Positions 5,893-53,488 of a stretch of DNA of 62,899 bases are shown one piece after another. Location of the stretch: assembly GCA_020435995.1 (NCBI GenBank), contig JAGQYO010000004.1, forward strand, positions 1 to 62,899. Direction: 5' to 3'. The notes beneath the pieces are model-generated. The model made no database searches, was not told where the DNA came from, and worked only from the letters and a program-made list of their open reading frames with translations. Numbering within the stretch: position 1 is the stretch's first letter; every line of letters starts with the position of its first letter. The position numbers were made by a program, and so were the translations under genes. Source of the DNA: Flavobacteriales bacterium (GTDB lineage: Bacteria > Bacteroidota > Bacteroidia > Flavobacteriales_G > Salibacteraceae).

Positions 5893-5957
5893 AAATAGGG
5901 GGATTAATTTGGTAAAAGTATATAAATTCAAGCCCTAGCAAAGGCTTGAATAAAGTA

Positions 5958-6674
5958 ATGACAAATTCGAATAAAAAGTACAATTTGAAGACCCTGGTAG
6001 TGTTTAGTGGGGCTGGAATTTCCGCAGAAAGTGGCATTGATACTTTTAGGGACTCCGGTGGACTTTGGGAGCAATATAAAGTTGAAGATGTAGCTACACC
6101 AGAAGCATTTTATAAACATGCAAAGTTGGTTTTAGATTTTTACAACATCAGACGGAAGCGAATCCAAAAAGTAATGCCAAACGCAGCACACCTGAGTTTA
6201 GTAGAGTTAGAAAAGGATTACAACGTACATATTATCACGCAAAACATAGATGACCTTCATGAACGAGCTGGATCGAGTTCGGTATTACATCTTCATGGCT
6301 TAATTACGCAAGCAAGAGATGAAAATGATGACCATACTATTTATGATATCGGATTTAATAATATTGAGGTAGGAGACTTATCTCCTCAAGGAGGGCAACT
6401 ACGACCTCATATCGTCTGGTTTGGTGAAGAAGTTCCAGAGATAGTCAACGCCCTCAAGTTGGTGTCGAAGGCGGATATTTTTATAGTAGTTGGCACCTCG
6501 CTAAACGTCTATCCTGCTGCTGGCTTAGCCTATCAAGCACCGAGGAATGCGCGGAAATATATAATAGATCCACATCTGCATGAAATAAACTGCCCTAAAG
6601 ATTACACGCTGATTCAAAATTTAGCATCGGAAGGGGTTTCTCAACTGGTACAACAATTGGTATTTCGCCACTAA
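5958..6674 (+). CDS. Zinc-less SIRT5/CobB-like NAD-dependent protein deacylase
   Basis: This sirtuin uses NAD+ to remove acyl groups from lysines. The 238-residue protein carries the NAD-binding FSGAGISAESGIDTFRDS (residues 16-33), TQNIDDLHERAG (94-105), the catalytic His113 in HLHG, and GTSLNVYPAAG. Tyr62 and Arg65 in FYNIRR match the Tyr/Arg pair that lets E. coli CobB and SIRT5 act on succinyl- and malonyl-lysine. The four cysteines of the usual structural zinc site are absent; the segment is replaced by a charged linker, as I recall from other Bacteroidota sirtuins. The ATG at 5958 is preferred to the upstream TTG at 5946 because homologues begin close to the Rossmann strand. Acyl preference is inferred. 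Confidence 0.92.
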   Translation: MTNSNKKYNLKTLVVFSGAGISAESGIDTFRDSGGLWEQYKVEDVATPEAFYKHAKLVLDFYNIRRKRIQKVMPNAAHLSLVELEKDYNVHIITQNIDDLHERAGSSSVLHLHGLITQARDENDDHTIYDIGFNNIEVGDLSPQGGQLRPHIVWFGEEVPEIVNALKLVSKADIFIVVGTSLNVYPAAGLAYQAPRNARKYIIDPHLHEINCPKDYTLIQNLASEGVSQLVQQLVFRH

Positions 6675-6742
6675 ATTGAAATCACTAATACATTTATACA
6701 ATGAGTACTATTCTTATATTCGCTTTTTCTAAAAAAAGGCAC

Positions 6743-7249
6743 ATGAAACAAACAATATTGGCATTGGGTTTATTTCTTTTCTCCACAACACTATTTGGAC
6801 AAGCAAGAACCATCCCTTCGGTAGAAGTTTTTGATATGAAGGGTGGAAAGTTTAATACCTCCCAACTAGATAATGATGGCAAACCCATGATCATAAATTT
6901 TTGGGCCACGTGGTGCAGTCCATGCAAAAGAGAGCTCAATAATATTGCCGATTTATACACCGATTGGGTTGAAGAAACAGGTGTGAAATTGGTAGCTATA
7001 TCGATTGATGATGCACGAAACATGCAAAAAGTAAGACCTTATGTTGATGGACAAGCTTGGGACTATGAAGTGTATATTGATGTAAACGCCGACTTTAAAA
7101 GACAAATGGGTGTAAATAATGTACCTCATACTTTTTTGGTTGATGGAGATAAAAACATTGTTTGGCAGCATAATTCTTACTCAGAAGGCGATGAAGTCGA
7201 ACTTTTTGAATTGGTTAAAAAACTCTCAAAACGGGAAAGCATAAAATAA
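6743..7249 (+). CDS. Exported TlpA/ResA-like thioredoxin
   Basis: A periplasmic thiol-disulfide oxidoreductase of the TlpA family. From the ATG at 6743 it has 168 residues: a signal peptide (1-20, ending LFGQ) and one thioredoxin fold with the redox motif WCSPC (Cys58/Cys61) and the cis-Pro region NNVPHTFLVDG. An ATG 42 bases upstream would put a charged stretch before the signal peptide and is less likely. It heads a close-packed run with a DUF6029 protein (6-base gap), an Omp28-type lipoprotein and a small barrel. A role in keeping the thiols of these envelope proteins reduced or oxidised is inferred from position, not shown. Confidence 0.9.
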   Translation: MKQTILALGLFLFSTTLFGQARTIPSVEVFDMKGGKFNTSQLDNDGKPMIINFWATWCSPCKRELNNIADLYTDWVEETGVKLVAISIDDARNMQKVRPYVDGQAWDYEVYIDVNADFKRQMGVNNVPHTFLVDGDKNIVWQHNSYSEGDEVELFELVKKLSKRESIK

Positions 7250-7255
7250 GATACT

Positions 7256-8950
7256 TTGAAGTTGAATAGAAAATTATGGATATCTACAATTGCCTGTGTC
7301 ATCACGGGCAATTTTGTTTTTACATCCTTACATGCACAGGAAAATGGCGCAGTTGAAGAATTCTTAGAAAAACCTCTTGAGATTCACGGGAATTTTAGCG
7401 TAAACGCGCAGTATTACAATGAAGATAGCACTATTGGCGCGCCAAAAGTTCCTGAACAAATGCTCACCAACGGCTTCGCAAACGTTATTATCACCAAAGG
7501 TGTTTTTAGCGCAGGAGTTCGATACGAAAGCTACAGAAACCCTGTTCTAGGCTTCGACCCCCGGTACAAAGGCAGTGGTTTTCCATATCGCTATCTCCAG
7601 TTTAAGCAAGACGGATTGGACGTAACTGCTGGTAATTTCTACGAACAATTTGGAACTGGCTTAATACTCCGAGCTTACGAGGAACGTGACTTGGGGGTAG
7701 ATAATGCCTTCGATGGAATACGGGTAAAGTACAGTACCAAGTTTGGTGTTTATGTGAAAGGGTTGATTGCCAAGCAGCGTTACTTTTTTAATCTAGGGCC
7801 AGGCATAGTTCGAGGTGTTGATGGTTTGGTTGTAATGAACGAATTAATCAAACCATTTGAAGACAGTAAATTTAAAGTAAAGGTAGGCGGTAGCCTTGTA
7901 AGCAAGTACCAAGAAGATGACAACCCAAACTACAAACTCCCTGAGAACGTAGCTTCAATGGCGGGCAGGCTAAATCTTTCTTATGAAGGTTTCAGCTTCT
8001 TAGGAGAATATGCTTATAAAATGAACGACCCTTCATCGGATAATGGTTTTCTTTATAATCCTGGTCAGGCACTTTATCTTTCAGGTACCTATTCTCAAAG
8101 AGGTTTGGGAATTAATGTGTCGGCCAAATCTATCGATAACATGAGTTACCGGTCGGATAGAAACGAAGGACTTAACAACCTCCTTATAAGTTACAACCCC
8201 GCACTAACCAAGCAGCATACCTACAACCTAGCAGCTACCCTTTACCCTTATGCATCTCAATTGACTGGAGAGGTAGCCTATCAAGCGGATGTGGTTTATA
8301 AAATAAAAAAGGGATCTGCCCTTGGTGGAAAATACGGAACCACGCTTATAGTAAACGCCGCCAAGTCTTTTGGGCTTGACTCAACTCACGTAAATGATTT
8401 GACGACTACACGACAAGGATATACCACAAATTTTTTCACCCCAGGACAAACAGAATATTACCAGGACATTAACGTTACGGTAGAAAGGAAAATGGTGAAA
8501 TGGTTTAAACTAAAAGCCATGTACATGAACTTAATGGCCAACAACGATATATTAAAATATGGCGGGTTGAACGGAAGTTGGAGTGGTAAGATATACGCTG
8601 ATATAGCCGTTTTGGACTTGTTGTTTAAACTAAACAGCAAACACAGCATCCGAACAGAAATTCAAGGATTGTGGTCAAAACAAGATATGGGAGATTGGGG
8701 AACATTTATCGCCGAGTATACCTTTAGCCCACATTTTTTTGTAGCCATTATGGACCAATACAATTATGGAAACCCCATTGAAGCGAATCAAATCCACTAC
8801 CCTTACGGATCGGTAGGTTACACCAATAAAAGCAACCGAATTTCTATTGGTTATGGCCGTCAAAAAGCAGGGCTATTTTGTGTAGGTGGTGTGTGTAGAG
8901 TTGTACCTGCGTCAAATGGATTAACAATTTCAGTAACTTCAAGCTTTTAA
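7256..8950 (+). CDS. DUF6029-family exported protein, probably an outer-membrane barrel
   Basis: A 564-residue exported protein that looks like the Bacteroidota DUF6029 family, for which I know no function. A signal peptide (about 1-27, ending LHAQ) is followed by alternating aromatic strands typical of an outer-membrane barrel (for example GVFSAGVRYESYRNPVLG and SFLGEYAYKM), and the protein ends in SVTSSF with a terminal aromatic residue. The start is a TTG at 7256, chosen because the signal peptide begins right there and no ATG precedes it. It sits between a TlpA-like thioredoxin and an Omp28-type lipoprotein whose start lies nine bases after its stop, so they are probably one transcript. 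Confidence 0.8.
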   Translation: MKLNRKLWISTIACVITGNFVFTSLHAQENGAVEEFLEKPLEIHGNFSVNAQYYNEDSTIGAPKVPEQMLTNGFANVIITKGVFSAGVRYESYRNPVLGFDPRYKGSGFPYRYLQFKQDGLDVTAGNFYEQFGTGLILRAYEERDLGVDNAFDGIRVKYSTKFGVYVKGLIAKQRYFFNLGPGIVRGVDGLVVMNELIKPFEDSKFKVKVGGSLVSKYQEDDNPNYKLPENVASMAGRLNLSYEGFSFLGEYAYKMNDPSSDNGFLYNPGQALYLSGTYSQRGLGINVSAKSIDNMSYRSDRNEGLNNLLISYNPALTKQHTYNLAATLYPYASQLTGEVAYQADVVYKIKKGSALGGKYGTTLIVNAAKSFGLDSTHVNDLTTTRQGYTTNFFTPGQTEYYQDINVTVERKMVKWFKLKAMYMNLMANNDILKYGGLNGSWSGKIYADIAVLDLLFKLNSKHSIRTEIQGLWSKQDMGDWGTFIAEYTFSPHFFVAIMDQYNYGNPIEANQIHYPYGSVGYTNKSNRISIGYGRQKAGLFCVGGVCRVVPASNGLTISVTSSF

Positions 8951-8959
8951 TTGAGACTC

Positions 8960-9892
8960 ATGAAAATCTTAAAAAACATATTACTACTACTCATTATTTC
9001 TGGAGTTTTTGCGATCACTTCTTGCGAAAAAATTGATGACCCCTTCGAAGGCGTTGAAGGCGGAGGCGGCGGTGAGCCTGTTGATACCGGAAACGGCGGC
9101 AACCCTGTTGTTATTAATGCAGATTCTATTTGGGGAGACACAGGGAATATCACCATTCGAAAAATGCTTACTGAAGAGATTTCTGGGCAATTGTGTGGAT
9201 TCTGTCCTCCAAAAACGGCCATTTTGAGCAACATTATTGATAATACTCATAAAGGTAAAGTTTATGGTGTAACTTATCATGCCACGAGTTTTGCTGATCC
9301 AAATGCTAAATATCCCACAGATTATCGAACAGAAAAAGGAACGGCTTTTAATCAGAAATTAGGTAACAGTGATGCGCCTGTTGCAGTATTTAGCCGCACT
9401 ATAATCGACAGCAGCCTAGTAGTTCAAGGATCAAAATTCGAGACCGCGTTTAACAAACTTGAATCGGATGGGTATTTCAACAACCCCAATTTTCAGCTCA
9501 AAATTTTAGGGATACACAACAAAGATAATGACGCCCGAAGCATTGTGGTAACGGCGAAAGCCCTCGCAGCCACCTCGGGTGTGCACACGGCTATTATTTT
9601 TATAATTGAAGATAAAATCATCGGGCAACAGAAATGGTACAACAACCCAAACGGCCCGACGGATCTCACGGACTACCCTCATAGGCATGTCTTTAGGGAT
9701 GCTATTGGATCTACCGATGGAAATGCCTTCATCAACAGTGATTTGGCTGCGGGCGAAGAAGTTTCAAAAACCTTTACGGTTGACTTGAAACCAGAGTGGG
9801 ACCTCAAGAAGGTGCGTTTGGTGGTTGCCATTCGTGATAACAATACAGGTCAGATTCTTCAGGTGGATGAAATACACGCAGAAAAAGAATAA
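8960..9892 (+). CDS. Omp28-related lipoprotein with thioredoxin-like CxxC
   Basis: A 310-residue lipoprotein of the Omp28 family. The lipobox AITSC puts the lipidated Cys at residue 22, and a flexible Gly-rich linker (about residues 33-50) follows. The domain begins around residue 67 with EEISGQLCGFCPP, whose Cys79/Cys82 form a CxxC placed like that of thioredoxin folds. The ATG at 8960 is preferred over a TTG nine bases earlier. It follows a TlpA-like thioredoxin and a DUF6029 barrel in the same run, so a thiol exchange function across the envelope is plausible but inferred. The stop overlaps the next ATG (TAATG). Confidence 0.86.
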   Translation: MKILKNILLLLIISGVFAITSCEKIDDPFEGVEGGGGGEPVDTGNGGNPVVINADSIWGDTGNITIRKMLTEEISGQLCGFCPPKTAILSNIIDNTHKGKVYGVTYHATSFADPNAKYPTDYRTEKGTAFNQKLGNSDAPVAVFSRTIIDSSLVVQGSKFETAFNKLESDGYFNNPNFQLKILGIHNKDNDARSIVVTAKALAATSGVHTAIIFIIEDKIIGQQKWYNNPNGPTDLTDYPHRHVFRDAIGSTDGNAFINSDLAAGEEVSKTFTVDLKPEWDLKKVRLVVAIRDNNTGQILQVDEIHAEKE

Positions 9893-10503
9893 TGAACATT
9901 AGATTTATTTTCATTTTACCCCTGCTTATTCAGGGGTTTTTTGTTTCTGCACAGTCCGAGGAAGGGTTTAAAGCAGGCCTTAAAGCGGGCTTAAATACCA
10001 GCCAAATGACTGGCGATGGGTATGCGGGGTTCTATAAATTTTCTCCCGTATTTGGCGCATTTGCCAGTCATGGTTTTGGAGAGCACATGAGGTTTCAATA
10101 CGAACTCCTTTACCAGAACAAAGGCAGCCGTGACCCAGCTCGACCCGATGAAGGAAAATACACTTCATATAAAATTGTAATGAACTATATAGAAGTACCT
10201 GTGCTTTGGCAATACAACCTTAAAAAATTTACCTTAGAATTAGGCCCTGGCTTTTCGTTTTTACTCCATACCAAAGAATTAGATGAGAATGGCGTAGTAA
10301 AAGTAAGTACCTACCCGTGGCGCAGTTTTGAATTGGATGGCATGTTGGGGGTCAATTATAATGTAAACGAGCATCTTTTTCTGAACATTCGCTCGCACCA
10401 TTCTATTTCATCAGTAGTTTCTTCCACAGTTGTAAATCGTTACGGTGTTTATGGCGGTGCATGGAATATCGTTATTGCATTTACGGCTAATTATCGTTTT
10501 TAG
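9892..10503 (+). CDS. Small outer-membrane beta-barrel protein (PorT/OMP_b-brl_2 type)
   Basis: A 203-residue exported protein with a signal peptide (1-20, ending VSAQ), then the GLKAGLNTSQMTGDGYAGF strand and turn typical of the PorT-like beta-barrels of Bacteroidota. About eight amphipathic strands follow and the C-terminus is TANYRF, ending in Phe as outer-membrane barrels do. No specific function can be read from it. Translation is probably coupled to the preceding Omp28 gene through TAATG. Its last 17 bases overlap the end of queG on the other strand, leaving no room for a separate terminator. Confidence 0.82.
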   Translation: MNIRFIFILPLLIQGFFVSAQSEEGFKAGLKAGLNTSQMTGDGYAGFYKFSPVFGAFASHGFGEHMRFQYELLYQNKGSRDPARPDEGKYTSYKIVMNYIEVPVLWQYNLKKFTLELGPGFSFLLHTKELDENGVVKVSTYPWRSFELDGMLGVNYNVNEHLFLNIRSHHSISSVVSSTVVNRYGVYGGAWNIVIAFTANYRF

Positions 10504-11431
10504 AAGTCGCTCCTAAAAATCTTAAGTTCCTTTTGAGCCCTTCAAATTTGGTTCTCTTCACCGCCGACTTTTTAAAAATCTCACTAAAAACTTCTTGGGT
10601 AATATCCTTCCACTCCACATTTTTCATTTCCAGTAATTTTGGATGCGGATCAAAGGTTGACTCTGAATGTGGTTTTGAAAACCTATTCCAAGGACACACG
10701 TCTTGACATATATCACAACCAAAGGCCCAATTCTCAAAAGTTTGGGGATTTAAAGCGGGTAAGGCCCCTTTTAACTCAATAGTAAAATAGGAAATACACT
10801 TGCTTCCATCCACCTTGTAGGGTTCAACAATGGCATCAGTGGGGCATGCATCAATACAAGCGGTACACGTCCCACAATAGTCCTTGATAGGCCCATCATA
10901 TTCTAACTCCAAGTCTAGAATTAATTCACAAAGAAAAAAATAAGACCCTGCCTTTGGATGAATAATATTTGTGTGTTTTCCTACCCAGCCCAAACCACTC
11001 TTCCGAGCCCATGCTTTATCCATTACTGGAGCAGAATCTACAAAGGCTCTTCCTTCAAACTGGCCTACTTCATTTTCCAAATCCATCAAAATAGATTTGA
11101 GTTTTCTTTTTATCACAAAGTGATAATCTTCGCCATACGCGTACTTCGAAATCTGAGGCACGTTGGGGTTTTGCTTCTTTTCAGGATAATAATTGAGCAT
11201 AAAAGAAACCACGCTTTTAGCTCCAGGCATAAGTTTACGGGGGTCAACCCTCTTTTCAAAATAGTTTTCCATCCATTTCATTTCGCCGTTTTGCCCCTTG
11301 TTTAACCATTGTTCAAGCTCCTTGGCTTCATTGGTCAATTCTACAGCTTTTGAAATGCCGCAATATGAAAAGCCATATTCAACGGCTTTGGATCGAATAA
11401 AATTTGAAATTTCTTTGGGTGAAGTTCCCAT
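10487..11431 (-). CDS. queG: Epoxyqueuosine reductase QueG
   Basis: QueG performs the last step of queuosine synthesis, reducing epoxyqueuosine in the tRNA wobble position using cobalamin and two [4Fe-4S] clusters. The 314-residue protein has the DUF1730/cobalamin-binding N-terminal half and the ferredoxin-like motifs CGTCTACIDACPTDAI and CDICQDVCPWN, with SKCISYFTIE between them. The ATG at 11431 overlaps the ruvB stop by one base (TAATG). It converges on the small barrel gene with a 17-base overlap. Nothing unusual in the catalytic regions. Confidence 0.96.
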   Translation of the reverse strand: MGTSPKEISNFIRSKAVEYGFSYCGISKAVELTNEAKELEQWLNKGQNGEMKWMENYFEKRVDPRKLMPGAKSVVSFMLNYYPEKKQNPNVPQISKYAYGEDYHFVIKRKLKSILMDLENEVGQFEGRAFVDSAPVMDKAWARKSGLGWVGKHTNIIHPKAGSYFFLCELILDLELEYDGPIKDYCGTCTACIDACPTDAIVEPYKVDGSKCISYFTIELKGALPALNPQTFENWAFGCDICQDVCPWNRFSKPHSESTFDPHPKLLEMKNVEWKDITQEVFSEIFKKSAVKRTKFEGLKRNLRFLGATSKNDN

Positions 11432-12465
11432 TACGAAAACAAGGTTCCTTGATCTGCTTGAGGGGCAATTCCCAAGTGCTTATAAGCCTTCAAAGTAGCT
11501 TCTCTTCCTCTTGGTGTTCTCATTAAAAAACCTTCCTGAATCAGAAAAGGTTCATATACTTCCTCAATAGTTCCAGCATCTTCAGCAACTGCGGTAGCAA
11601 TCGTAGTCAATCCTACTGGCCCACCCCTAAACTTGGTTATGATGGTAGATAAAATTTTGTTATCCATTTCGTCCAATCCATTTTGATCCACATTTAGCGC
11701 ATCAAGGGCATAATTGGAAATTGCCTTATCAATGGTACCATTCCCTTTGATTTGAGCAAAGTCACGCACCCTTCTCAATAGTGCGTTGCAGATTCTGGGG
11801 GTTCCTCTACTCCTACCAGCTAATTCCATTGAGGCCGAAGATTCAATCTCTATATTTAATATCCCAGCAGATCGCTCTACAATACCCTGCAGGGTTTTGG
11901 TATCATAGTATGACAACCTTGAATTAATACCAAACCTCGCTCTTAGGGGTGATGTAAGTAAACCCGATCGCGTGGTAGCGCCGATTAAGGTAAAAGGCTC
12001 TAGGTCGATCTGAACACTACGGGCATTTGGTCCCGAATCAATCATGATATCTATCTTAAAATCCTCCATGGCCGAATACAAAAACTCTTCAACCACAGGA
12101 CTTAATCGATGAATTTCGTCAATAAACAGCACATCGTTCTCTTCCAGATTAGTTAAAAGCCCTGCCAAATCTCCAGGTTTATCCAACACTGGTCCAGAGG
12201 TAATTTTGATTCCCACATTCAATTCGTTGGCAATAATATGAGCCAGCGTTGTTTTGCCTAATCCCGGAGGCCCGTGAAGAAGAACGTGATCAAGGGCTTC
12301 CTTTCGTTGAAGGGCAGCTTGCACAAAAATCCGCAGATTTTCAAGTGTTTTTTCCTGCCCAGTAAAATCCCCAAACTCTTTAGGTCGAAGCACTTTCTCA
12401 ATATCCTTATCGGCTGAGCTGAGATGATCAGAATTAGGATTAAGATTCTCGTTGTACGTGGACAT
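11431..12465 (-). CDS. ruvB: Holliday junction DNA helicase RuvB
   Basis: RuvB is the AAA+ motor that drives branch migration with RuvA. The 344-residue protein has Walker [13 protein letters not shown], Walker B DEIHR, the sensor 1 segment [10 protein letters not shown], and the C-terminal winged helix ending in [11 protein letters not shown]. All catalytic motifs are intact and the length is normal. It lies downstream of coxA behind a strong hairpin and is probably transcribed with queG. Confidence 0.97.
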
Positions 12466-12487
12466 AATTCAAATGTAGAGAGAAAAA

Positions 12488-12521
12488 AAATGTCCTTAAC
12501 CCGCATGGATTAAGGACATTT
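12488..12521 (-). terminator. Intrinsic terminator after the ACIII-cox operon
   Basis: A perfect 12-bp inverted repeat (12488-12499 with 12510-12521, loop 10 bases) lies just downstream of coxA on the minus strand. The A-run at 12483-12490 gives a U-tract in the transcript. It should end the long respiratory mRNA before ruvB. Confidence 0.85.
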
Positions 12522-12543
12522 CAACAAAGTCAATTTTTTATAC

Positions 12544-14301
12544 TTAGTGACCTTCACCATCTACCTCACCTTCCTCCAATGGAACGGTCTGAGGTACGAA
12601 GTCATGTTCTTTTCCTGGCTTGCTATAATCATAAGCCCATCGGTGTACAACCGGTAAATCACCAACCCAATTACCGTGAATATGTTCTACAGGTGTAGTC
12701 CATTCGAGTGAGTTAGCTCCCCAAGGATTTTGTGGTGCCCGTGGCCCTCTAAACATGCTATAAACAAAATTGAAGGCAAAAATGAACTGCGCTAAGCCTC
12801 CAACGATGGCAAACAATGTTACTAAAATAGAGATATCTTGTAGGCCATCGAAAAGTGGAAATTCAGAATAAGTATAATATCGTCTTGGAACACCCGCTAA
12901 TCCTTGAAAGTGCTGTGGGAAGAACACCCCGTAAGCACAGATAAACGTGATCCAAAAATGGAGGTAGCCAAGCTTTTTGTTCAACATCCTTCCCCACATT
13001 TTAGGGAACCAATGGTAAACTCCAGCAAACATTGCCATAACCGCTGAAAGCCCCATTACAATATGAAAATGCGCCACAACAAAATAGGTGTCATGTAAAT
13101 TTATATCCAATGCTGCATCTGCTAAGATAATTCCAGTAACTCCACCAGTGATAAACGTAGAAACCATGGCAATAGCGAACATCATAGCTGGCGTAAACCG
13201 AATACTACCCTTCCACAAAGTGGTTAAGTAATTAAATGCCTTAACCGCCGACGGTATTGCAATGAGCAGCGTTGTAAACACAAAAACACTTCCAATAAAC
13301 GGATTCATACCACTTACATACATGTGATGGCCCCATACGATAAAGGATAAAAATCCAATTGCTAATATAGACCCGATCATGGCGCGGTATCCAAAAATAG
13401 GCTTCCTTGCGTTACATGAAATTACTTCAGAGGCAATACCGAATGCGGGAAGGATAATAATATAAACCTCTGGATGCCCTAAAAACCAAAATAGGTGATG
13501 GTATAATAAAGGGCTACCACCTGTACGATCCAATGCTTCACCAGCAATATAAATATCAGATAAATAGAAAGAAGTACCAAAGGACCTATCAAAGATTAAT
13601 AGAAGTGCAGCAGCAAAAAGCACTGGAAAACTTAAAACTCCAATAATGGCCGTAACAAAAAGCGCCCAAACAGTTAGGGGCAACCTTGTCATATTCATTC
13701 CTTTGGTTCTCAAGTTGATAATGGTAACTATATAATTTAATCCACCCAACAGAGAAGAAATAATGAACAATGACATGGAAACCAGCCACAGCGTCATTCC
13801 AGCGCCAGACCCAGGCATAGCCTCAGGCACTGCGCTTAGAGGGGGGTACACAGTCCAACCACCAGCGGCAGGTCCACTTTCTACAAAAAGAGATGCAATC
13901 ATCACTACCGAGGACCCAAAAAAGAACCAATATGAAAGCATATTCAAAAAGCCAGAAGCCATATCCCTAGCTCCAATTTGTAGCGGTATTAAAAGATTCG
14001 CAAAGGTTCCACTCAATCCTGCGGTTAATAGGAAAAATACCATTATGGTACCGTGGATAGTAACTAAAGCCAAATACATATTTGGATCTAACACTCCACC
14101 TGGCGCCCATTTGTCACCAAGGAATACGTTTAATATTGAAAAGCTTTCACCTGGCCAAGCTAATTGCAATCTAAAGAGCAACGACATTATCATTCCTATG
14201 AATGCCATGATGGTTCCCGTAATCAAAAACTGACGAGAAATCATTTTATGATCGTGGCTAAATAAGTACTTTGTAATAAAGGGTTCTGAGTGACCTGACA
14301 T
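12544..14301 (-). CDS. coxA: Cytochrome c oxidase subunit I (aa3 type)
   Basis: The catalytic heme-copper subunit that reduces O2 to water and pumps protons in the inner membrane. The 585-residue, roughly 12-helix protein shows the CuB/cross-linked Tyr motif GHPEVYIIILP, the CuB His pair in VWGHHMYVSG, the heme a3/a ligands in HDTYFVVAHFHIVMG, and a K-pathway Lys in AVKAFNYL. The Glu in GHPEVY marks a type A1 enzyme. It is the last gene of the actABCDEF-coxB-coxA run. In Flavobacterium johnsoniae the aa3 oxidase forms a supercomplex with ACIII, and this gene order fits that. Subunit III is not in the window. Confidence 0.97.
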   Translation of the reverse strand: MSGHSEPFITKYLFSHDHKMISRQFLITGTIMAFIGMIMSLLFRLQLAWPGESFSILNVFLGDKWAPGGVLDPNMYLALVTIHGTIMVFFLLTAGLSGTFANLLIPLQIGARDMASGFLNMLSYWFFFGSSVVMIASLFVESGPAAGGWTVYPPLSAVPEAMPGSGAGMTLWLVSMSLFIISSLLGGLNYIVTIINLRTKGMNMTRLPLTVWALFVTAIIGVLSFPVLFAAALLLIFDRSFGTSFYLSDIYIAGEALDRTGGSPLLYHHLFWFLGHPEVYIIILPAFGIASEVISCNARKPIFGYRAMIGSILAIGFLSFIVWGHHMYVSGMNPFIGSVFVFTTLLIAIPSAVKAFNYLTTLWKGSIRFTPAMMFAIAMVSTFITGGVTGIILADAALDINLHDTYFVVAHFHIVMGLSAVMAMFAGVYHWFPKMWGRMLNKKLGYLHFWITFICAYGVFFPQHFQGLAGVPRRYYTYSEFPLFDGLQDISILVTLFAIVGGLAQFIFAFNFVYSMFRGPRAPQNPWGANSLEWTTPVEHIHGNWVGDLPVVHRWAYDYSKPGKEHDFVPQTVPLEEGEVDGEGH

Positions 14302-45739: not shown

Positions 45740-46654
45740 TTGAAAAGCCATAAGGCCATCATAAAAGCTTCCATCGTTGGCATAGTTGTCAACGCCATTC
45801 TCGCGCTTACTAAAATAGGTGCTGGATTTTGGGGAAACTCACTAGCTGTAATCGGAGATGGAATAGATTCTTCGACTGATGTTGCAACTTATGTGATTAC
45901 CCTTTTTGCTGCGAGAATTATGCTGCGCCCCCCAAACCCCATGTTTCCCTATGGTTATAAAAGGGCTGAAGCAATTGCCACCAAGATGCTTTCATTCTTC
46001 ATTTTCTTTGTAGGCGCTCAATTGGTCATGAGCTCGGTATGGCGGTTGTGGACAGGTGCAGAATCTCAGCCTATTAGAAAAATAGCTCTTATTGTTACGC
46101 TATTTTCAGTTTTTGTAAAACTCGGATTGAGCTGGTGGCAAATGAAACAAGGGAAGTCGTCTGGAAGTAAAATGCTAATTGCGAATGCTAAAAACATGCA
46201 AAGTGATATTGTATTATCCTTAGGTGTTTTAGTTGGAATTTCGCTTTCTTATGTTACAGGTATTTCTTGGCTCGACCCATTTGTAGCCGTACTTGTGGGA
46301 CTTTGGATTCTCAAGGTTGCCTTCGATTTGTTTTGGGAAACCAGCGCCGAACTCATGGACAGCAACAACGACCCTGATGTATATCGAAAAATATTTGAGG
46401 CAGTGGCATCTGTTGCAGGAGCTCACAACCCCCATAAAGCCAGGGCGCGAAAAATGTCGAATCTATGGGTCATTGATTTGGATATAGAAGTAGAAGCAGA
46501 ATTACCCATGTCTGAAGTACACAAAATTGGCGTAGCTGTAGAAAAAGCCATCAAAGAGAGAGTTGAAAACGTTTATGATATAATGATTCACTTTGAGCCC
46601 ATGGGCAATGAAGAAAAAGAACGATTTGGGGTGGAATACCATCACGTCACTTAA
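45740..46654 (+). CDS. Cation diffusion facilitator (metal/H+ antiporter)
   Basis: A 304-residue inner-membrane metal exporter with about six helices and a cytoplasmic C-terminal ferredoxin-like domain. The membrane site aligns with E. coli YiiP/FieF: two Asp in helix 2 (GIDSSTD), but in helix 5 the His-x3-Asp is Asn-x3-Asp (NMQSD). A D-D-N-D site is unlike the usual zinc form and suggests another metal such as manganese or iron; that is inferred. The start is a TTG at 45740 and the preceding helix fits the family N-terminus. It leads a run of ion-transport genes. Confidence 0.88.
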   Translation: MKSHKAIIKASIVGIVVNAILALTKIGAGFWGNSLAVIGDGIDSSTDVATYVITLFAARIMLRPPNPMFPYGYKRAEAIATKMLSFFIFFVGAQLVMSSVWRLWTGAESQPIRKIALIVTLFSVFVKLGLSWWQMKQGKSSGSKMLIANAKNMQSDIVLSLGVLVGISLSYVTGISWLDPFVAVLVGLWILKVAFDLFWETSAELMDSNNDPDVYRKIFEAVASVAGAHNPHKARARKMSNLWVIDLDIEVEAELPMSEVHKIGVAVEKAIKERVENVYDIMIHFEPMGNEEKERFGVEYHHVT

Positions 46655-46659
46655 ATTTG
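46652..46659 (+). promoter_or_regulatory. Candidate -7 box overlapping the CDF stop codon
   Basis: TAAATTTG matches TAnnTTTG and shares its TAA with the CDF stop. It ends four bases before the GTG of the small Cys/Lys-rich gene, predicting a leaderless mRNA. A TTTG at 46625-46628 is a possible -33 element, with a long 23-base spacer. Confidence 0.45.
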
Positions 46660-46663
46660 CACA

Positions 46664-46825
46664 GTGGGCGACAAAATAAAATGTTGTAAGAGTTATAAGA
46701 AAAAACACAAGGGCTATTGTACCGACTGCCCTAAAATCATTGTTCTCGATAAACCAACTAAAAAGAAAAAAAATAAATACAAAAAGAAAAAGAAGAAAAA
46801 GGTGAAGGAGCTGGAAGTAGCGTAA
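46664..46825 (+). CDS. 53-residue Cys/Lys-rich protein
   Basis: A small gene between the CDF and MscS genes. From GTG at 46664 it encodes a basic protein with two Cys pairs, KCCKSYKKKHKGYCTDCPK, then a hydrophobic IIVL and a Lys-rich tail ending KVKELEVA. The paired Cys suggest a metal-binding or zinc-knuckle fold and the Lys tail could bind nucleic acid or the membrane surface. Its position next to a metal exporter makes a metal-related role attractive, but I do not recognise the family for certain. The frame's strong composition and a -7 box just upstream support it as real. Confidence 0.62.
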   Translation: MGDKIKCCKSYKKKHKGYCTDCPKIIVLDKPTKKKKNKYKKKKKKKVKELEVA

Positions 46826-46958
46826 ATGAATTTCGAAATCAAAGGGTCTAGTTATTCGGTCCGTACATCGCCTACTTTATCACTAACTTGCGTGTTCTTT
46901 GCAAGATTTTATTCATACCTATGCAGCATAATTCTCTCTGTGTAAACTTCATTTCGAG

Positions 46959-47828
46959 ATGAAAGTAAACGAAATTTTAGATTTCAAATTAATCAATTTA
47001 GAGCAGTATCAACTTACTGTTTTTAGCCTCTCTATAGCGCTTGTATTGCTAGCGGGGGCCTATATTGGATTAAAAATAGCCAAAAGATATATCAAACCAT
47101 ATAACGCTGATTCGGTTGAAGACAGGGGAACAAGGCATAGCATTTACTTGATTATTAATTACTTCACATGGGTGATCGTTCTGGTAGTTGCTCTACAGGT
47201 GCTAGGTGTAAAAATTACCTTTCTTTTAGCTGGTTCTGCTGCCCTCTTGGTTGGATTAGGCATAGGTATCCAACAAATTTTTAATGATATTGTAAGTGGC
47301 ATGTTCCTCTTGTTTGAAGGAAGCGTAAAAATCGGAGATATCATGGAAATTGATGGTATGGTATGCAAAGTTTGCCAAATAAAATTGCGCACTTCGAGCG
47401 TGCTGACGAGGGATGATGTTATCGTGATTATTCCCAACCATAAGTTTATAAACGATAAAGTAACCAACTGGAGTCACCAGGTAAAAATGGTGAGGTTCCA
47501 GGTAGATGTGGGCGTGTCTTATAACAGTGATCCGGAGCAAGTTAGAGACATCCTGTTGTCTATAATGAACAACCATAAGCAGGTTTCTAAAGCTAAGGAC
47601 AAAATGCCCATGGTGCGATTTGTAGGGTTTGGGAGCTCTTCATTAGATTTTAACATGCATTTTTATACTTCCGAAATATTTCGATTTGAAAACATCATGA
47701 GCGATATGCGGTTTGAAATTTTCAAGCAGTTTAAAAAAGCGAATATTGAAATTCCTTTTCCACAACGCGACATTCACGTTAAAAGCTCAGATTTGGATGT
47801 ATCGAAACTCAGTAAGATTCTAAGCTAA
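46959..47828 (+). CDS. Small-conductance mechanosensitive channel (MscS family)
   Basis: A 289-residue MscS channel that would release osmolytes when membrane tension rises. It has three N-terminal helices (about 18-38, 65-85, 90-112), the last being the Gly/Ala-rich pore helix LLAGSAALLVGLGIGIQQIF, the beta domain (VKIGDIMEIDGMVCKVCQIK) and the C-terminal alpha/beta domain. The length equals that of E. coli MscS. The 133 bases before it contain no other gene I can support. The next gene, an antiporter, begins four bases after its stop. Confidence 0.93.
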   Translation: MKVNEILDFKLINLEQYQLTVFSLSIALVLLAGAYIGLKIAKRYIKPYNADSVEDRGTRHSIYLIINYFTWVIVLVVALQVLGVKITFLLAGSAALLVGLGIGIQQIFNDIVSGMFLLFEGSVKIGDIMEIDGMVCKVCQIKLRTSSVLTRDDVIVIIPNHKFINDKVTNWSHQVKMVRFQVDVGVSYNSDPEQVRDILLSIMNNHKQVSKAKDKMPMVRFVGFGSSSLDFNMHFYTSEIFRFENIMSDMRFEIFKQFKKANIEIPFPQRDIHVKSSDLDVSKLSKILS

Positions 47829-47832
47829 TTTT

Positions 47833-49125
47833 ATGGTCAACTTTGGTCCTTATAATTATATCATCGTTGCCTCCATTGTGGTGATGCTTTCATTCGTTTT
47901 TGGAACAATTGCGAAAAAAACGAACGTTCCTGCTGTGCTCCTTCTTATTGCGTTGGGAGTTGGATTTCAATATCTATTGAAGTACCTCGGCGTAGCCGAA
48001 ATCAACTTTTTTCCTATTCTCGAAGTATTGGGAATTGTTGGGTTGATCATGATTGTGTTAGAAGCTGCTCTTGAGCTCGAGCTAAAGCCGGAAAAGGTGG
48101 GTATGATTGTAAAATCTCTTGTAGTAGCACTTATTGGCTTAGGGCTTTCGGTGGGAAGCGCCGGAGCCATACTCTATTATATGGTTAACGGCATGGGCCT
48201 CTTGCAAGCTTTGCTTTATGCAACTCCTCTATCTATTCTGTCGAGTGCTATAATCATCCCAAGTGTTGGAAGTTTGGTTCAGCACAAAAAGGAGTTTCAT
48301 ATTTACGAAAGTACTTTTAGCGATATTCTAGGCATCATGCTGTTTTATTTCCTTATAGGCATGCTCGACTTTGCCGTACCTGCCACTACTGGTGGGCACA
48401 ACGGGGGCAACCCAGTTGTAGAATTCTTTATCAGCTTGGGGGCAACCTTACTTGTAGCGTTTGTGGCTAGTTATATTTTACTTATTGGTTTTCAGCATAT
48501 TAAAAGTGGCGCGAAACTATTTCTATTGATTTCCATGTTGTTGTTGCTTTATGCCGTAGGCAAAAAAATGCACCTCTCTCCACTTATTATCATTTTGGTA
48601 TTTGGCCTCATTGTGCGAAACAGTAAATTATTTTTCGTTGGGCCGCTATCGCGTTTTTTAGATACCCATAAATTTCACGAAATGGAGCATGGGCTTCATG
48701 TAGTAACCCTAGAAACAGCCTTTGTGGTACGCACCTTTTTCTTCGTGATTTTTGGGATTAGCATTGCCCTTATAAGCCTACTAAGTTTGGATGTACTTAT
48801 TATTAGCTCGACACTTATGGCCAGTATTTACGCATTTAGATGGCTAGTTCTACGTGTTTTTATGGGTCATGATATTCAACCACAATTATGGATTGCCCCA
48901 CGTGGACTTATCACAGTATTGCTATTTTACGCCATTCCAGAGGAGTATACTAGCTCGTCATTCGAATCTGGAATTCTTCTATTTATTATCATTGCCACCG
49001 GATTGGTTATGACCATGGGGATGATAGCAGCTAAAAAAACAAAGAAAACAGAGGTTAAAACAGAAGATGTAGTACCATTAGAAATTGACTCACAACCTAT
49101 TCCTCGATTGAAAAAAACCATATAA
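47833..49125 (+). CDS. CPA1-like cation:proton antiporter
   Basis: A 430-residue inner-membrane antiporter with about 12-13 helices, starting IIVASIVVMLSFVFGTIAKK. It resembles NhaP-type CPA1 exchangers, but the expected ion-binding motifs differ: the helix-5 ESxxND is YESTFSDILG (Asn replaced by Ser, Glu and Asp kept), and the TDPV turn is SSAIIIPSV. A polar Lys/Glu-rich tail of about 35 residues ends the protein. Na+ or K+ specificity cannot be told. It lies between an MscS channel and a K+ channel, sharing TAATG with the latter. Confidence 0.88.
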   Translation: MVNFGPYNYIIVASIVVMLSFVFGTIAKKTNVPAVLLLIALGVGFQYLLKYLGVAEINFFPILEVLGIVGLIMIVLEAALELELKPEKVGMIVKSLVVALIGLGLSVGSAGAILYYMVNGMGLLQALLYATPLSILSSAIIIPSVGSLVQHKKEFHIYESTFSDILGIMLFYFLIGMLDFAVPATTGGHNGGNPVVEFFISLGATLLVAFVASYILLIGFQHIKSGAKLFLLISMLLLLYAVGKKMHLSPLIIILVFGLIVRNSKLFFVGPLSRFLDTHKFHEMEHGLHVVTLETAFVVRTFFFVIFGISIALISLLSLDVLIISSTLMASIYAFRWLVLRVFMGHDIQPQLWIAPRGLITVLLFYAIPEEYTSSSFESGILLFIIIATGLVMTMGMIAAKKTKKTEVKTEDVVPLEIDSQPIPRLKKTI

Positions 49126-49994
49126 TGTCACCGAACTTAACGCAATCAGAAAGAGATATTAAAATTCAAAAGCTTCGTGCTTTCGTTTACCAAACGGTAT
49201 TTTTTACAGATACCCGTGCTGGGCGAAACTTTGATGTGGCACTTATTGTCGCTATTCTGCTGTCCATCCTTGCGCTGATGCTTGAAAGCGTTTATGAAAT
49301 AGAAAAACAATGGGGTGCTGAATTATACATACTTGACTGGGTCTTCACCATAATTTTTACCATTGAATATGGCATCCGAATTTGGTCATCAAACAAGCCA
49401 ATGAAGTACATTTTCAGCTTCTATGGATTGGTAGATCTGCTTTCGATCTTACCCCTGTATACAACCTTCATTTTCACCGGAGTTCAATCCTTTTCCATTA
49501 TCCGATCACTCCGGTTGTTGCGTGTATTTAGGGTACTGAAGCTGGTGCAGTTTGTTGGTGAAGCTAGCTCAATGCTGAGAGCTATAAAAGCAAGTATGAA
49601 CAAGATTATTGTTTTTATTGCCTTCATCCTGATCGTTAGCAACGTGATAGGTACACTTATGTATATGATTGAGGGGCGTGAAAATGGCTTTACAAGTATT
49701 CCTCGAAGTATCTATTGGGCAATCGTTACCCTCACTACGGTGGGCTATGGAGATGTAACACCCTCCACACCACTGGGGCAAGTGTTGGCCGTGTTGCTCA
49801 TGATATTGGGTTACGGAGTAATTGCAGTGCCTACTGGTCTTGTTACGGCAGAAGCCATCAAAGTATCTCATGAAGAAGATGCCTTAAAAAAATCGCCCCC
49901 AGCAGTAGCAGATAAATGTTCGAATTGTGGTGAAAAAGTTGTTTTAGTAAAAGCGAGATTCTGTAGCAGTTGTGGCGCCCAGTTAAAACCCTAA
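49125..49994 (+). CDS. Voltage-gated K+ channel with C-terminal zinc ribbon
   Basis: A 289-residue six-helix Kv-type channel. S4 carries regularly spaced Arg (SIIRSLRLLRVFRVLKL, Arg127, 130, 133, 136) and the selectivity filter is TVGYGD (205-210). After S6 a short linker leads to a zinc ribbon, CSNCGEKVV with RFCSSCGAQL (Cys265, 268, 280, 283), at the very C-terminus. The ribbon may tune gating or report metal or redox state; this is inferred. It closes the run of ion-transport genes, and the next gene is convergent. Confidence 0.92.
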   Translation: MSPNLTQSERDIKIQKLRAFVYQTVFFTDTRAGRNFDVALIVAILLSILALMLESVYEIEKQWGAELYILDWVFTIIFTIEYGIRIWSSNKPMKYIFSFYGLVDLLSILPLYTTFIFTGVQSFSIIRSLRLLRVFRVLKLVQFVGEASSMLRAIKASMNKIIVFIAFILIVSNVIGTLMYMIEGRENGFTSIPRSIYWAIVTLTTVGYGDVTPSTPLGQVLAVLLMILGYGVIAVPTGLVTAEAIKVSHEEDALKKSPPAVADKCSNCGEKVVLVKARFCSSCGAQLKP

Positions 49995-50026: not shown

Positions 50027-50758
50027 CTAGCTTTCCAAACTTAATTTTAAAACTTCCTCTGCTTTTCGCAATTGATCCTTACTAAGGCCTTGAAGTACAA
50101 CTCTGAATAGGTAAGTAGATTCTCCCTCCTCTATTTTTTCAATAAAGCTGTCATCTTGTTGAATCAACCATGGCATATTTAGCAGAGATTGGTTGATCCT
50201 TTTTTCGGTGGCAATTACGTTGCAAGGCTTTGGTATTTCTAATTTCACCATGGCATTCACCACAAACTCCGAAGGGCTTGTTTTCAGTATGGATGAGGCG
50301 GTGAGTATCGAGTAGGGAACACTTAGAATATTACTCCCCGATTCGTCTAATTCTATTAAGCAATTGAGGTATTTAAAGGCTATAATTTTTCCGGAAGTAG
50401 ATCCAAAATTAATGGATTGCCCCACTTTGAGTTCCCCTTGCAGAAGTACCATCAAACCCGCTAAATAATTGCTTACAAACTTCCAGGTAGCAGCTACCAC
50501 AATGCCCAAGATTACAGCGCCTGATATGGGATTTGGCACAACAAATACCACCAACGAACTCACACCAAATAAGAGCCAAAGCAACCGTTCGACAAGCTGC
50601 CATTTCTCATGCACAACTTTATGCCAGGAATAATTCCCCGAAGTGGCCAGCACAATTCGTTTTCCTACCCCAAAAATGAAATATAGCGCAACACCAAAAA
50701 GCACTATTTCCAGTAAGGGCAAATAATCCAAGTTTAATGTAGTTTGAATGTTTTTCAT
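50027..50758 (-). CDS. Divergent MscS-like channel paired with an NTPase
   Basis: A 243-residue membrane protein with a first helix (LEIVLFGVALYFIFGVG, about 16-32), a hairpin of helices (about 52-90) and the MscS-type transition SNYLAGLMVLLQGELKVGQSI into a beta domain (about 105-165), followed by a small alpha/beta domain. It is shorter than MscS, and its pore helix lacks the regular Gly/Ala pattern, so it may not be a free-standing tension sensor. It starts 12 bases after the stop of the large NTPase gene, in the same orientation, so the two are very probably one transcript. Confidence 0.82.
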   Translation of the reverse strand: MKNIQTTLNLDYLPLLEIVLFGVALYFIFGVGKRIVLATSGNYSWHKVVHEKWQLVERLLWLLFGVSSLVVFVVPNPISGAVILGIVVAATWKFVSNYLAGLMVLLQGELKVGQSINFGSTSGKIIAFKYLNCLIELDESGSNILSVPYSILTASSILKTSPSEFVVNAMVKLEIPKPCNVIATEKRINQSLLNMPWLIQQDDSFIEKIEEGESTYLFRVVLQGLSKDQLRKAEEVLKLSLES

Positions 50759-50770
50759 TCTGAATGCTTG

Positions 50771-53488
50771 TTAAATGAGTTTGAGTTGTTTGAGCCTTCG
50801 CAACACAAAAGGATGCACATAAGGCGAAACCCTGTACGTTTCACCGAGAAGCTCATCCAATATGCCGCTTCTCTTCATGTGATTGAGCACCAAAGTCGCC
50901 TCATAATCGGTAGAACGCATGATGCGGCTTAGTTTCTTAGCCGTGATGTGTTTGTGCAATATAATCTGTGCCAAAATCACGAGCCATTCTTTGTTGTCAA
51001 TTTCGGGAAGTTCGCGGTATTTTGCCGATCTCATTTTCATGATCTCACCTTCTACTTCAACTAAATGCCCCAACCACAAATGAAACGCAGCACCCACATT
51101 GCCATCACTAAATTCGATCAAATCATCGGCCAGTTCCTTAATTTTATTTCCAGAGTTTGGTCCTATTTGTTCTCCATTGAGCCACAATTGTAGCCCCCCT
51201 GCCTTGTGTCTCGCTTCAATTGCATTGGTCATTTGTTTTACAGAGAAAGGCCTCAGTGGAATGGTTTGGATAAAATTATCCTCAAATGACATATAGCGAT
51301 TCATTAGTTGGTAGGCGCTGCTATTCAAATTAATGATGAAAATGTACGATTGGCTATATCGCTCTACCATTTTCGAAAACAGCTCCAACACGCGATAGCC
51401 ATCTTCATACCGATTCCACCACAATTCAAAATCATTGAACAAAAACACCGATCCTTTGGGTGCCATCTCAATCACATCCACATCTATACCCGTAGATTGA
51501 AGCCTGTGCGATAACGCTCGGATAAAATTTTCGGGATTTGAGCTTCCCCTCATTGGCGCATTGATTTGAAACACTTTTCCAGAAATCAATTTTTGGCACA
51601 TCATTTCACTGAAAAATGTTTTACCTGAAAGTGCATCTCCCAAAACAGCAATAGCCCCACCACTGCCAGCCTTGAGGCGCTCTACTCCCAGCCTAGCCAA
51701 GTTCATTTCCTTTTCGCGATAAAGAAATAGGTTTTCACGTGGCGCATGTTTTCCAATAAACAATTGCTGGTAATAAAATGGTAATGACTGAATGGCTTTC
51801 AATGGCGGACTTACGCTTTCTGTAAAGCTTCGCAACCGCGCATTCAAACTTTCCATTTTAGAATTTACGGCTTTAAATTCAGCGTAATTCAATTCATCCT
51901 GTGTGGTGGTTATTAAGCTGATGTACTTGCTAAAAAAACGCTGCGCCCTTCCGGAAATTCCGTTATAAAGTTTATCAGCTATACTTATTTTATTGATCAG
52001 GGTTGAGTCTACTTCATGCATTCCCGCTTCCTGAACCAAGTGTTCAATCGAAAAATAAGTTTCTACATCCGTCCTAATTTCGTTGATTTGAGCCACAAAC
52101 TTTGCCTCTATTTCGGAGAGCGCATCCAATGCATTAGAAGCATTTTGTTCGGCTTGCTCCTTAGAATGCTGGAACACCACTGGCCAATTATCGATTTCAC
52201 TACGTGATGCAATGCCATGCTCTATCATTCTTAAACTAGAAGTTAAAGGAGCCATGGCAGAGGCACATCTTACGGGTAGTCCCAGTAGTACGGCGTGAAT
52301 AGGATTATCTACAATAACGTCTAATACATAGTCGGCCATAAAAGCGGTATCCAGTTCAACGGTGTCATTTTGGTAATTGATGGTCATTTTGGTAGGAATT
52401 GAATGGGCTAACTCCTGTAGCAAATCCAAGGATTGTTTCACCTGAATTTCATCCAGCACAAATCGATCATCCAGTTCTAGATTAACCGCCTCGGCCAGCT
52501 CATAGGATTTATCAATTATGCATTTATCAATCTCTTCGAGAAGGAGTTTGGCACCATCCGCTTCTTTTTTTACTACGTTAAAAACATGCTGAACCACGTT
52601 TTCCTCGATTCGCGAAAGTTCATTTCGCACATTCACCTTCATTTGCGCTAGGTAGATGTATAGCTCTGTTTTTTCTAGATAAGCCGTTATTTGCTTTCTC
52701 CAAGTGGCGGTCGCCTCCTTTAATTGAGATTTGGCAAGTGTAACTTCTTCCGTTCTCTGCTGGTTCGCTTTACGGAGCTTGTAAACAGAAATCAAACTGC
52801 CATCTGCAAACATCTCACTCACCAGTAGATCCAGTGCTTTTTGAAGGTAGCATTTTAAGTATTGTTCGTGTTCTTCGGTGAGTCGTTTGAGCGAAGCAAA
52901 TTCTACTTCTGCATTAGAAGTTTCAACAGTTATAGATTTCTCTACTAAATATGCCCAATCGGTGAACCATTGGCCGCTTGCCTCAGTAATTTTCTTTTGA
53001 AATTTAAGTAAAAGCTGAGCGCCTAAAAGATTGAATCGAAAACCGACTACATCGCGCATAGGTACTTGAATAGCTGTACCTAAACCTACAGCTTTTTTAA
53101 AACGCAATCTCGCCTTTGATTTGGCTTCAGCCGCAGAATCCGTAGACGATTCTTTTAGCTCATCTGCGTCTACCGTTCTCTTTATTTTAATGGCTTGCTT
53201 TTTATGAATCGTCGAAAAAGACAAGTCAGCCTCCGCAAAAAAACCTCTTACACCTTCATTGACCTGCGTGAGCTTTTCGTGTTTATAATAATCCAAAAGT
53301 TGAAGCGACTGGCCCATCAGCGCATTGGATCCCAGGTATTTATCGGTAAGCAAGCCTATTGTATTGCTTACTAGTTCGTTTTGGCTTTCGGAAATGATAT
53401 TCAGATGTTCGGCAAATGCCTTTTTCAAATCCTGACTTACCTCAAGACCAATTGATTTAACCGCTTCATCGATATTTTTCACTTCCAT
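50771..53488 (-). CDS. Large P-loop NTPase with helical N-terminal region
   Basis: A 905-residue soluble protein I do not recognise. Residues 1-570 are almost all helical and Glu/Lys/Gln-rich, with no signal peptide or clear membrane helix. A single NTPase domain follows: Walker A GDALSGKT (617-624), Walker B VFLFNDFE (681-688), and a sensor-like IINLNSS (718-724). The C-terminus (about 830-905) is a winged-helix-like segment (ITAKKLSRIMRSTDYEAT). The architecture, long helical arm plus AAA/STAND-like ATPase plus winged helix, with a membrane-channel gene directly downstream, suggests an ATP-gated switch that acts on the membrane. That is inference. Confidence 0.8.
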   Translation of the reverse strand: MEVKNIDEAVKSIGLEVSQDLKKAFAEHLNIISESQNELVSNTIGLLTDKYLGSNALMGQSLQLLDYYKHEKLTQVNEGVRGFFAEADLSFSTIHKKQAIKIKRTVDADELKESSTDSAAEAKSKARLRFKKAVGLGTAIQVPMRDVVGFRFNLLGAQLLLKFQKKITEASGQWFTDWAYLVEKSITVETSNAEVEFASLKRLTEEHEQYLKCYLQKALDLLVSEMFADGSLISVYKLRKANQQRTEEVTLAKSQLKEATATWRKQITAYLEKTELYIYLAQMKVNVRNELSRIEENVVQHVFNVVKKEADGAKLLLEEIDKCIIDKSYELAEAVNLELDDRFVLDEIQVKQSLDLLQELAHSIPTKMTINYQNDTVELDTAFMADYVLDVIVDNPIHAVLLGLPVRCASAMAPLTSSLRMIEHGIASRSEIDNWPVVFQHSKEQAEQNASNALDALSEIEAKFVAQINEIRTDVETYFSIEHLVQEAGMHEVDSTLINKISIADKLYNGISGRAQRFFSKYISLITTTQDELNYAEFKAVNSKMESLNARLRSFTESVSPPLKAIQSLPFYYQQLFIGKHAPRENLFLYREKEMNLARLGVERLKAGSGGAIAVLGDALSGKTFFSEMMCQKLISGKVFQINAPMRGSSNPENFIRALSHRLQSTGIDVDVIEMAPKGSVFLFNDFELWWNRYEDGYRVLELFSKMVERYSQSYIFIINLNSSAYQLMNRYMSFEDNFIQTIPLRPFSVKQMTNAIEARHKAGGLQLWLNGEQIGPNSGNKIKELADDLIEFSDGNVGAAFHLWLGHLVEVEGEIMKMRSAKYRELPEIDNKEWLVILAQIILHKHITAKKLSRIMRSTDYEATLVLNHMKRSGILDELLGETYRVSPYVHPFVLRRLKQLKLI

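Follow-up and report, generated by a model that had tools for sequence, protein, structure and literature searches.

A conserved pair of genes

Two adjoining genes on the reverse strand of a 62,899-nucleotide stretch of DNA from a Flavobacteriales bacterium (contig JAGQYO010000004.1; this whole stretch is hereafter called the window) encode an ATPase and an MscS-like membrane protein, and they form a real, conserved two-gene unit. Gene A (50771–53488, ATG start) encodes a 905-residue ORC/STAND-like ATPase with long helical arms, as judged from a check of its open reading frame and from its predicted fold. Gene B (50027–50758, ATG start) encodes a short MscS-like membrane protein of 243 residues, identified by a sub-threshold Pfam match, an AlphaFold2 model and matches in the PDB. 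The two genes share a strand and are separated by 12 bases (50759–50770). An earlier note on this DNA, made from the sequence alone, had described just such a unit, and we confirmed both the reading frames and the gap.

The pairing holds across relatives. We gathered loci by the ATPase alone and inspected their neighbours afterwards, which gave 125 non-identical loci. A same-strand MscS-family gene directly adjoins the ATPase gene in 110 of these (99 downstream and 11 upstream). The count rises to 113 after repair of start calls at L081, L112 and L158, where the start of a linked-type MscS had been mis-called into the ATPase frame. The gap between the two genes is mostly −4 to +17 bases, and a 4-bp overlap is common. 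Similarly, 39 of the 42 ATPase clusters defined at 40% identity have an MscS gene, and reversal of the gene order in the 11 loci with MscS upstream leaves the adjacency intact. The earlier note had asked whether the ATPase always neighbours an MscS-like gene across genomes; its homologues nearly always do, and are not mostly found without one.

Two other explanations of this adjacency were rejected. Pfam detects nine MscS genes over the 3.76 Mb of the window genome, and from that density we estimate that chance would place the two genes side by side in well under 1% of loci, against the 113 of 125 observed. Nor does a large conserved synteny block account for it, as the flanking genes differ among the classes of locus described below.

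The exceptions that lack an MscS gene comprise a Flavobacteriales clade with ATPases of ∼1,120 residues, one SLC12 type (L070), two loci with a neighbour of 185–187 residues, and truncated contigs. In the ∼1,120-residue clade the upstream gene, where the contig extends that far, resembles miaA by eye. The 185–187-residue neighbours (L150, 7172–7735; L151, 7172–7729) occupy the position of the short MscS gene; they have three transmembrane (TM) helices, share the motif NP[LI]FH at TM3 and seemingly lack a beta domain. We considered whether they are MscS remnants, but profile comparison to MscS was non-significant and did not convince us.

Additional MscS genes occur at some loci. At L153, L157, L164 and L167 the ATPase gene is preceded by a divergent pair of MscS genes, of which the linked MscS clade includes only the one transcribed in the same direction as the ATPase gene. 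At L093 (1417–2085) and L097 (2998–3867) a second MscS gene, of canonical type, lies just upstream of an SLC12–ATPase fusion.

The ATPase

The AlphaFold2 model of the gene A product (predicted local distance difference test score, pLDDT, 84; 55-member alignment) describes a modular protein. Residues 1–545 (51854–53488) form the arms, which are long antiparallel helices plus a beta hairpin at about residues 367–380; the stretch 492–545 is modelled with low confidence. The arms are followed by one alpha/beta P-loop domain, which together with the first lid helix spans residues ∼590–765 (51194–51721), by the remainder of the lid, and by a C-terminal winged helix. The model places the winged helix at residues ∼833–887, within a C-terminal region of residues ∼833–901 (50786–50992) for which a profile search finds winged-helix regulators. 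The best Foldseek matches of the model are Orc1/Cdc6-type AAA+ proteins and the STAND protein Apaf-1, so that the alpha/beta core, lid and winged helix of the AAA+/STAND architecture are all present.

The catalytic motifs are also in place. Walker A, GDALSGKT, lies at residues 617–624 (51617–51640) and includes the expected lysine. The acidic Walker B region, VFLFNDFE, lies at residues 681–688 (51425–51448) and is followed by LWW; D686 and E688 within its FNDFE segment are conserved. Residues G622, E688, W690 and R760 are invariant in the 55-sequence alignment. The earlier note had named both motifs, a single P-loop domain, a long helical N-terminal region and a winged-helix tail, and on each of these points conservation or the model agrees with it.

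Searches by sequence found no match for gene A in Pfam, NCBIfam, PADLOC or the PDB sequences. Among curated families, its relatives show weak matches to AAA_16, AAA_22 and nSTAND.

The MscS-like protein

Gene B has the fold of an MscS protomer. Its model (pLDDT 88; 51-member alignment) comprises TM1 (residues 12–38), TM2 (43–73), TM3 (77–107), a beta domain (115–148) and an alpha/beta domain (167–242). E. coli MscS is the top PDB match of the model (E 3e-13), and a profile search of the PDB likewise finds MscS (E 7e-14). The Pfam family MS_channel_2nd scores below its cut-off in gene B itself (17.7 against 20.2 bits) and is matched in 46 of 51 relatives at E ≤ 0.001. The earlier note's description of a shortened channel is correct for the ends, since gene B has neither an extra N-terminus nor the C-terminal barrel, but not for the core, which is whole.

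The linked MscS proteins stand apart from the unlinked ones. In a tree of ATPase-linked MscS proteins and paralogues from their own genomes, 23 unlinked proteins form one supported group (SH-like approximate likelihood ratio test, SH-aLRT, 95), and the ATPase-linked proteins fall outside it. The sub-groups of the linked proteins largely match those of the ATPase tree, and distances in the two families correlate (0.61).

Fused transporters and other architectures

The ATPase is widespread. A search with gene A of 100 relatives found matches in six other genomes, and in a collection limited to one genome per species a profile of its ATPase domain matched 71 loci, spread over Bacteroidota, Myxococcota, Calditrichota, Ignavibacteriota, Latescibacterota and other phyla. 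Strong profile matches (E below 1e-13) occur in ∼67 of 395 genomes of the phylum Bacteroidota. We discarded a tally of 350 of the 395, because ClpB-length proteins with short Walker A matches (E∼1e-4) had inflated it.

In members of the same family as the window genome, a protein of ∼1,690 residues combines an SLC12-type transporter in its N-terminal half (Pfam AA_permease, E 2e-46, and SLC12; TIGR00930, K-Cl cotransporter, E 6e-114) with the ATPase in its C-terminal half. A short MscS-like gene follows with an overlap of 4–8 bases. This is the first of five classes of locus, and it accounts for 57 loci including those with split frames (L009 and L012 are among the SLC12-fused). In class 2 a standalone ATPase is paired with a short MscS-like gene, mostly accompanied by a gene for a CPA antiporter; the window belongs here with L044, L013, L118, L147, L150 and L151. 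In class 3 a standalone ATPase of ∼1,000 residues has a full-length MscS downstream, and in class 5 a full-length MscS lies upstream. In class 4 a CPA2 antiporter is fused to the ATPase and an MscS gene follows; L142 was assigned to this class by Pfam, and L139, L143, L148 and L152 by size, number of TM helices and position. The L142 operon (4520–13792) encodes a 414-residue membrane protein without a Pfam match, the CPA2–ATPase fusion, MscS, TrkH and TrkA.

The tree of ATPases joins the window to L044 as its sister (support 100) and separates both of them from the large SLC12 clade as well as from the remaining CPA-linked group. These separate placements indicate that the partner transporter differs by clade and the MscS partner is constant. 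Gene A itself has the homologous ATPase domain and the short MscS-like neighbour, and lacks the N-terminal SLC12 domain. An unfused SLC12-like gene of 736 residues lies elsewhere in the window genome (L171, 6305–8515), and neither an ATPase nor an MscS-like gene is apparent beside it. At L045 (5319–6074), a ZIP-family metal transporter gene is found directly upstream of a standalone ATPase–MscS pair, the position that SLC12 or CPA takes in others.

The pore helix and the catalytic motifs differ between these classes. In the short linked MscS proteins the mean Gly/Ala fraction of TM3 is 0.16, against 0.36 in paralogues (Mann–Whitney p 1e-10, kinship ignored). Aromatic residues in TM3 are about doubled in the short transporter-linked type, and the short linked proteins carry W..xRDFxAG in place of the usual QD..KN and IPY in place of IPN. 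The linked MscS proteins of classes 3 and 5 have a canonical pore helix (GIAVGFAAQDILKNIFGG). The SLC12-fused ATPases keep their catalytic residues (K623 in 55 of 57, D686 in 55 of 57 and E688 in all 57). Because the enzyme is conserved in this lineage and the channel signature is not, comparison of the sequences argues that the MscS-like partner in the short transporter-linked lineage is a sensor or scaffold.

In the ATPases of classes 3 and 5 (for example L121 and L163) D686 is lost and E688 is often Q, with E or D at position 685. A canonical MscS pore thus goes with an altered Walker B, and the catalytic and pore signatures vary oppositely. We set aside a reading of these Walker B changes as a dead ATPase, as an acidic residue (E685) stands one column earlier.

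Neighbouring ion-transport genes

The pair faces a run of genes on the forward strand (45740–49994) that Pfam assigns to a CDF exporter, a canonical MscS, a CPA antiporter and an ion channel, as the earlier note had observed of ion-transport genes in general. The canonical MscS gene (46959–47828, identified by Pfam and the MscS tree) adjoins the antiporter gene; it is one of the 23 unlinked paralogues and not the unit's own MscS. The ion channel (49125–49994; Pfam Ion_trans, E 7e-36) is of the voltage-gated type and is an uncertain member of the system; L044 has no such gene between its ATPase–MscS unit and its antiporter. The channel ends in an unusual C-terminal zinc ribbon (PF13240, E 1e-5).

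The third gene of the run, at 47833–49125, encodes a CPA-type Na+(K+)/H+ antiporter (Pfam Na_H_Exchanger, E 1e-17) and is the probable transporter partner of the unit. A CPA gene lies beside seven of the eight standalone short-MscS units, compared with three of the 57 SLC12-fused units and none of the 37 units with a full-length MscS. The orthologue of this antiporter is near an MscS or ATPase gene in none of ten comparison loci. The pattern fits replacement of the fused transporter by a separately encoded CPA antiporter in the standalone short-MscS units, and this antiporter would then most likely be the transporter partner in the window genome.

A proposed control module

We propose that genes A and B form a conserved membrane-associated control module for monovalent-cation and osmotic homeostasis, in which the ATPase couples an MscS-derived sensor to a transporter; we judge the chances of this being correct to be evenly balanced. 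An ATPase of the AAA+/STAND class with an Orc/Cdc6-like core and a winged helix would act as a nucleotide-dependent switch, its state depending on energy, ionic strength or tension. The MscS-derived oligomer would anchor the complex in the membrane and probably sense tension or crowding. The long helical arms of the ATPase would bridge this oligomer and the transporter, and the ATPase would set the activity of K+, Na+, Cl− or H+ transport. The controlled transporter would vary by clade: a fused K-Cl-cotransporter-like SLC12 in most, a fused CPA2 in others (with TrkH and TrkA added in L142), and the adjoining CPA antiporter here. Contact between the two proteins and the transporter, the direction in which control runs and the signal that is sensed are all elements that we infer. 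The SLC12 and CPA2 fusions, the TrkH/TrkA operon and the lost pore signature together shift the likely role from opening a lethal channel to regulating monovalent-cation transport. A more specific version is tentative and, in our estimate, somewhat doubtful: that in the transporter-linked lineages the MscS-derived oligomer is no longer a channel and now serves, with the ORC/STAND ATPase, as a sensor or scaffold governing SLC12, CPA or Trk.

Several observations weigh against this proposal, and the partnership with the antiporter in the window is its weakest link. The enrichment of CPA genes beside standalone short-MscS units (seven of eight, against three of 94 other units; Fisher p 5e-8) ignores shared ancestry. 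The antiporter orthologue is a near-universal single-copy gene across most genomes of the family, and in the window and L044 it runs convergently to the unit, whereas in the other five loci it follows on the same strand. Moreover, the 37 loci in which the ATPase has a full-length MscS as its neighbour have neither an adjacent CPA gene nor a fused transporter, so that a transporter is not obligatory. The ∼1,120-residue ATPase clade (L008, L053, L059, L067, L096 and L101) has no MscS neighbour at all. Finally, TM3 of gene B (50438–50530), the equivalent of the pore helix, is reduced in Gly/Ala, but at 0.25 its content is intermediate, and gene B may yet be a conducting pore.

If it does conduct, the nucleotide state of the ATPase might open or close it, so that it would serve as a switch for ion release or an emergency valve. 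The MscS fold of gene B suits such a gated channel, and channel control would be natural in the full-length-MscS classes, which have a canonical pore and no CPA gene nearby in any of the 37 loci. However, TM3 of the transporter-linked relatives has lost the Gly/Ala pattern and gained aromatics, as that of gene B seems in part to have done, the beta domain of gene B falls below the Pfam cut-off, and fusion of the ATPase to a transporter is the usual arrangement. We consider a gated channel unlikely, if a serious contender; the earlier note's specific suggestion that an ATPase switch opens the channel finds no support in the transporter fusions or in the lost pore signature of the short type. 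A plainer alternative is a conventional osmotic valve whose ATPase neighbour is co-regulated under osmotic stress with no interaction between the two. MscS proteins are generally osmotic and adjacency alone does not prove contact, but deep retention of one MscS lineage with the ATPase, survival of the pair through reversal of gene order, and parallel trees exceed what co-regulation needs, and the short type lacks a canonical pore. This we think improbable.

Slightly less probable again is an assembly or quality-control chaperone, in which remodelling or insertion of the transporter would fall to the AAA+ domain and membrane anchoring to the MscS-like protein. The AAA+ fold, the transporter fusions and the adaptor-like arms are compatible with that role; yet the nearest folds are ORC/STAND switches and not Clp/FtsH unfoldases, and a stoichiometric covalent fusion to a transporter fits regulation better than catalytic assembly. 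The earlier note had also raised abortive defence. A STAND-like ATPase with a membrane protein does follow a known defence logic, and PADLOC gave one weak match, to mad8 (21.9 bits), in a single relative (L142). PADLOC found nothing for the window proteins or for six of the seven relatives, there were no plasmid, phage or viral-contig matches, which makes defence unlikely, and the partners are secondary transporters or a TrkH/TrkA operon. We regard an abortive-infection or toxin-like module as very improbable.

Should the more specific version be correct, the ATPase and the oligomer would act as an ATP-coupled mechanical governor on salt transport in bacteria, and such regulated ion-transport machines would make up a widespread and undescribed class. 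We know of no role assigned to bacterial SLC12 relatives or to many MscS paralogues; a conserved module that links the two through an ATPase would explain why members of the MscS family persist without a canonical pore. Regulated cell-volume transport would also gain a prokaryotic counterpart, and the coupling of turgor sensing to ion transport could be tested directly in a system of two or three genes.

Comparison with known systems

Neither the ATPase–MscS pair nor the SLC12–ATPase fusion with MscS is described in the open PubMed Central literature, the scope of our search; the earlier note likewise knew of no characterised system with this pair. We rate the system as outside any known kind, built from components of known superfamilies (the MscS fold and the AAA+/STAND fold).

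Gene B shares its protomer fold and the order of TM1–3, beta and alpha/beta domains with the MscS family (E. coli MscS, YnaI). The short linked type differs from that family in a TM3 that is not Gly/Ala-rich, in altered motifs and in its obligate-looking ATPase neighbour, and gene B differs in lacking the additional terminal regions. The SLC12 cation-chloride cotransporters (TIGR00930, PF03522) resemble the N-terminal half of the ∼1,700-residue relatives. By contrast, the C-terminal ∼900 residues of those relatives are the arms and ATPase, an MscS partner gene accompanies them, and SLC12 is absent from the window protein. CPA2/Kef and TrkH–TrkA systems find their likeness in the one clade with a CPA2–ATPase fusion beside MscS, to which L142 adds TrkH and TrkA; that clade stands apart in that its putative regulator combines an ORC/STAND-type ATPase with an MscS-derived protein, besides the RCK-type TrkA. 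Finally, gene A has the P-loop core, lid and winged helix of STAND and Orc1/Cdc6-type AAA+ proteins (Apaf-1, ORC2, PABY2304; Foldseek E 2e-7 to 1e-5). Unlike them, it carries large helical N-terminal arms, has no DNA-binding or repeat domains, and has membrane proteins as its putative partners.

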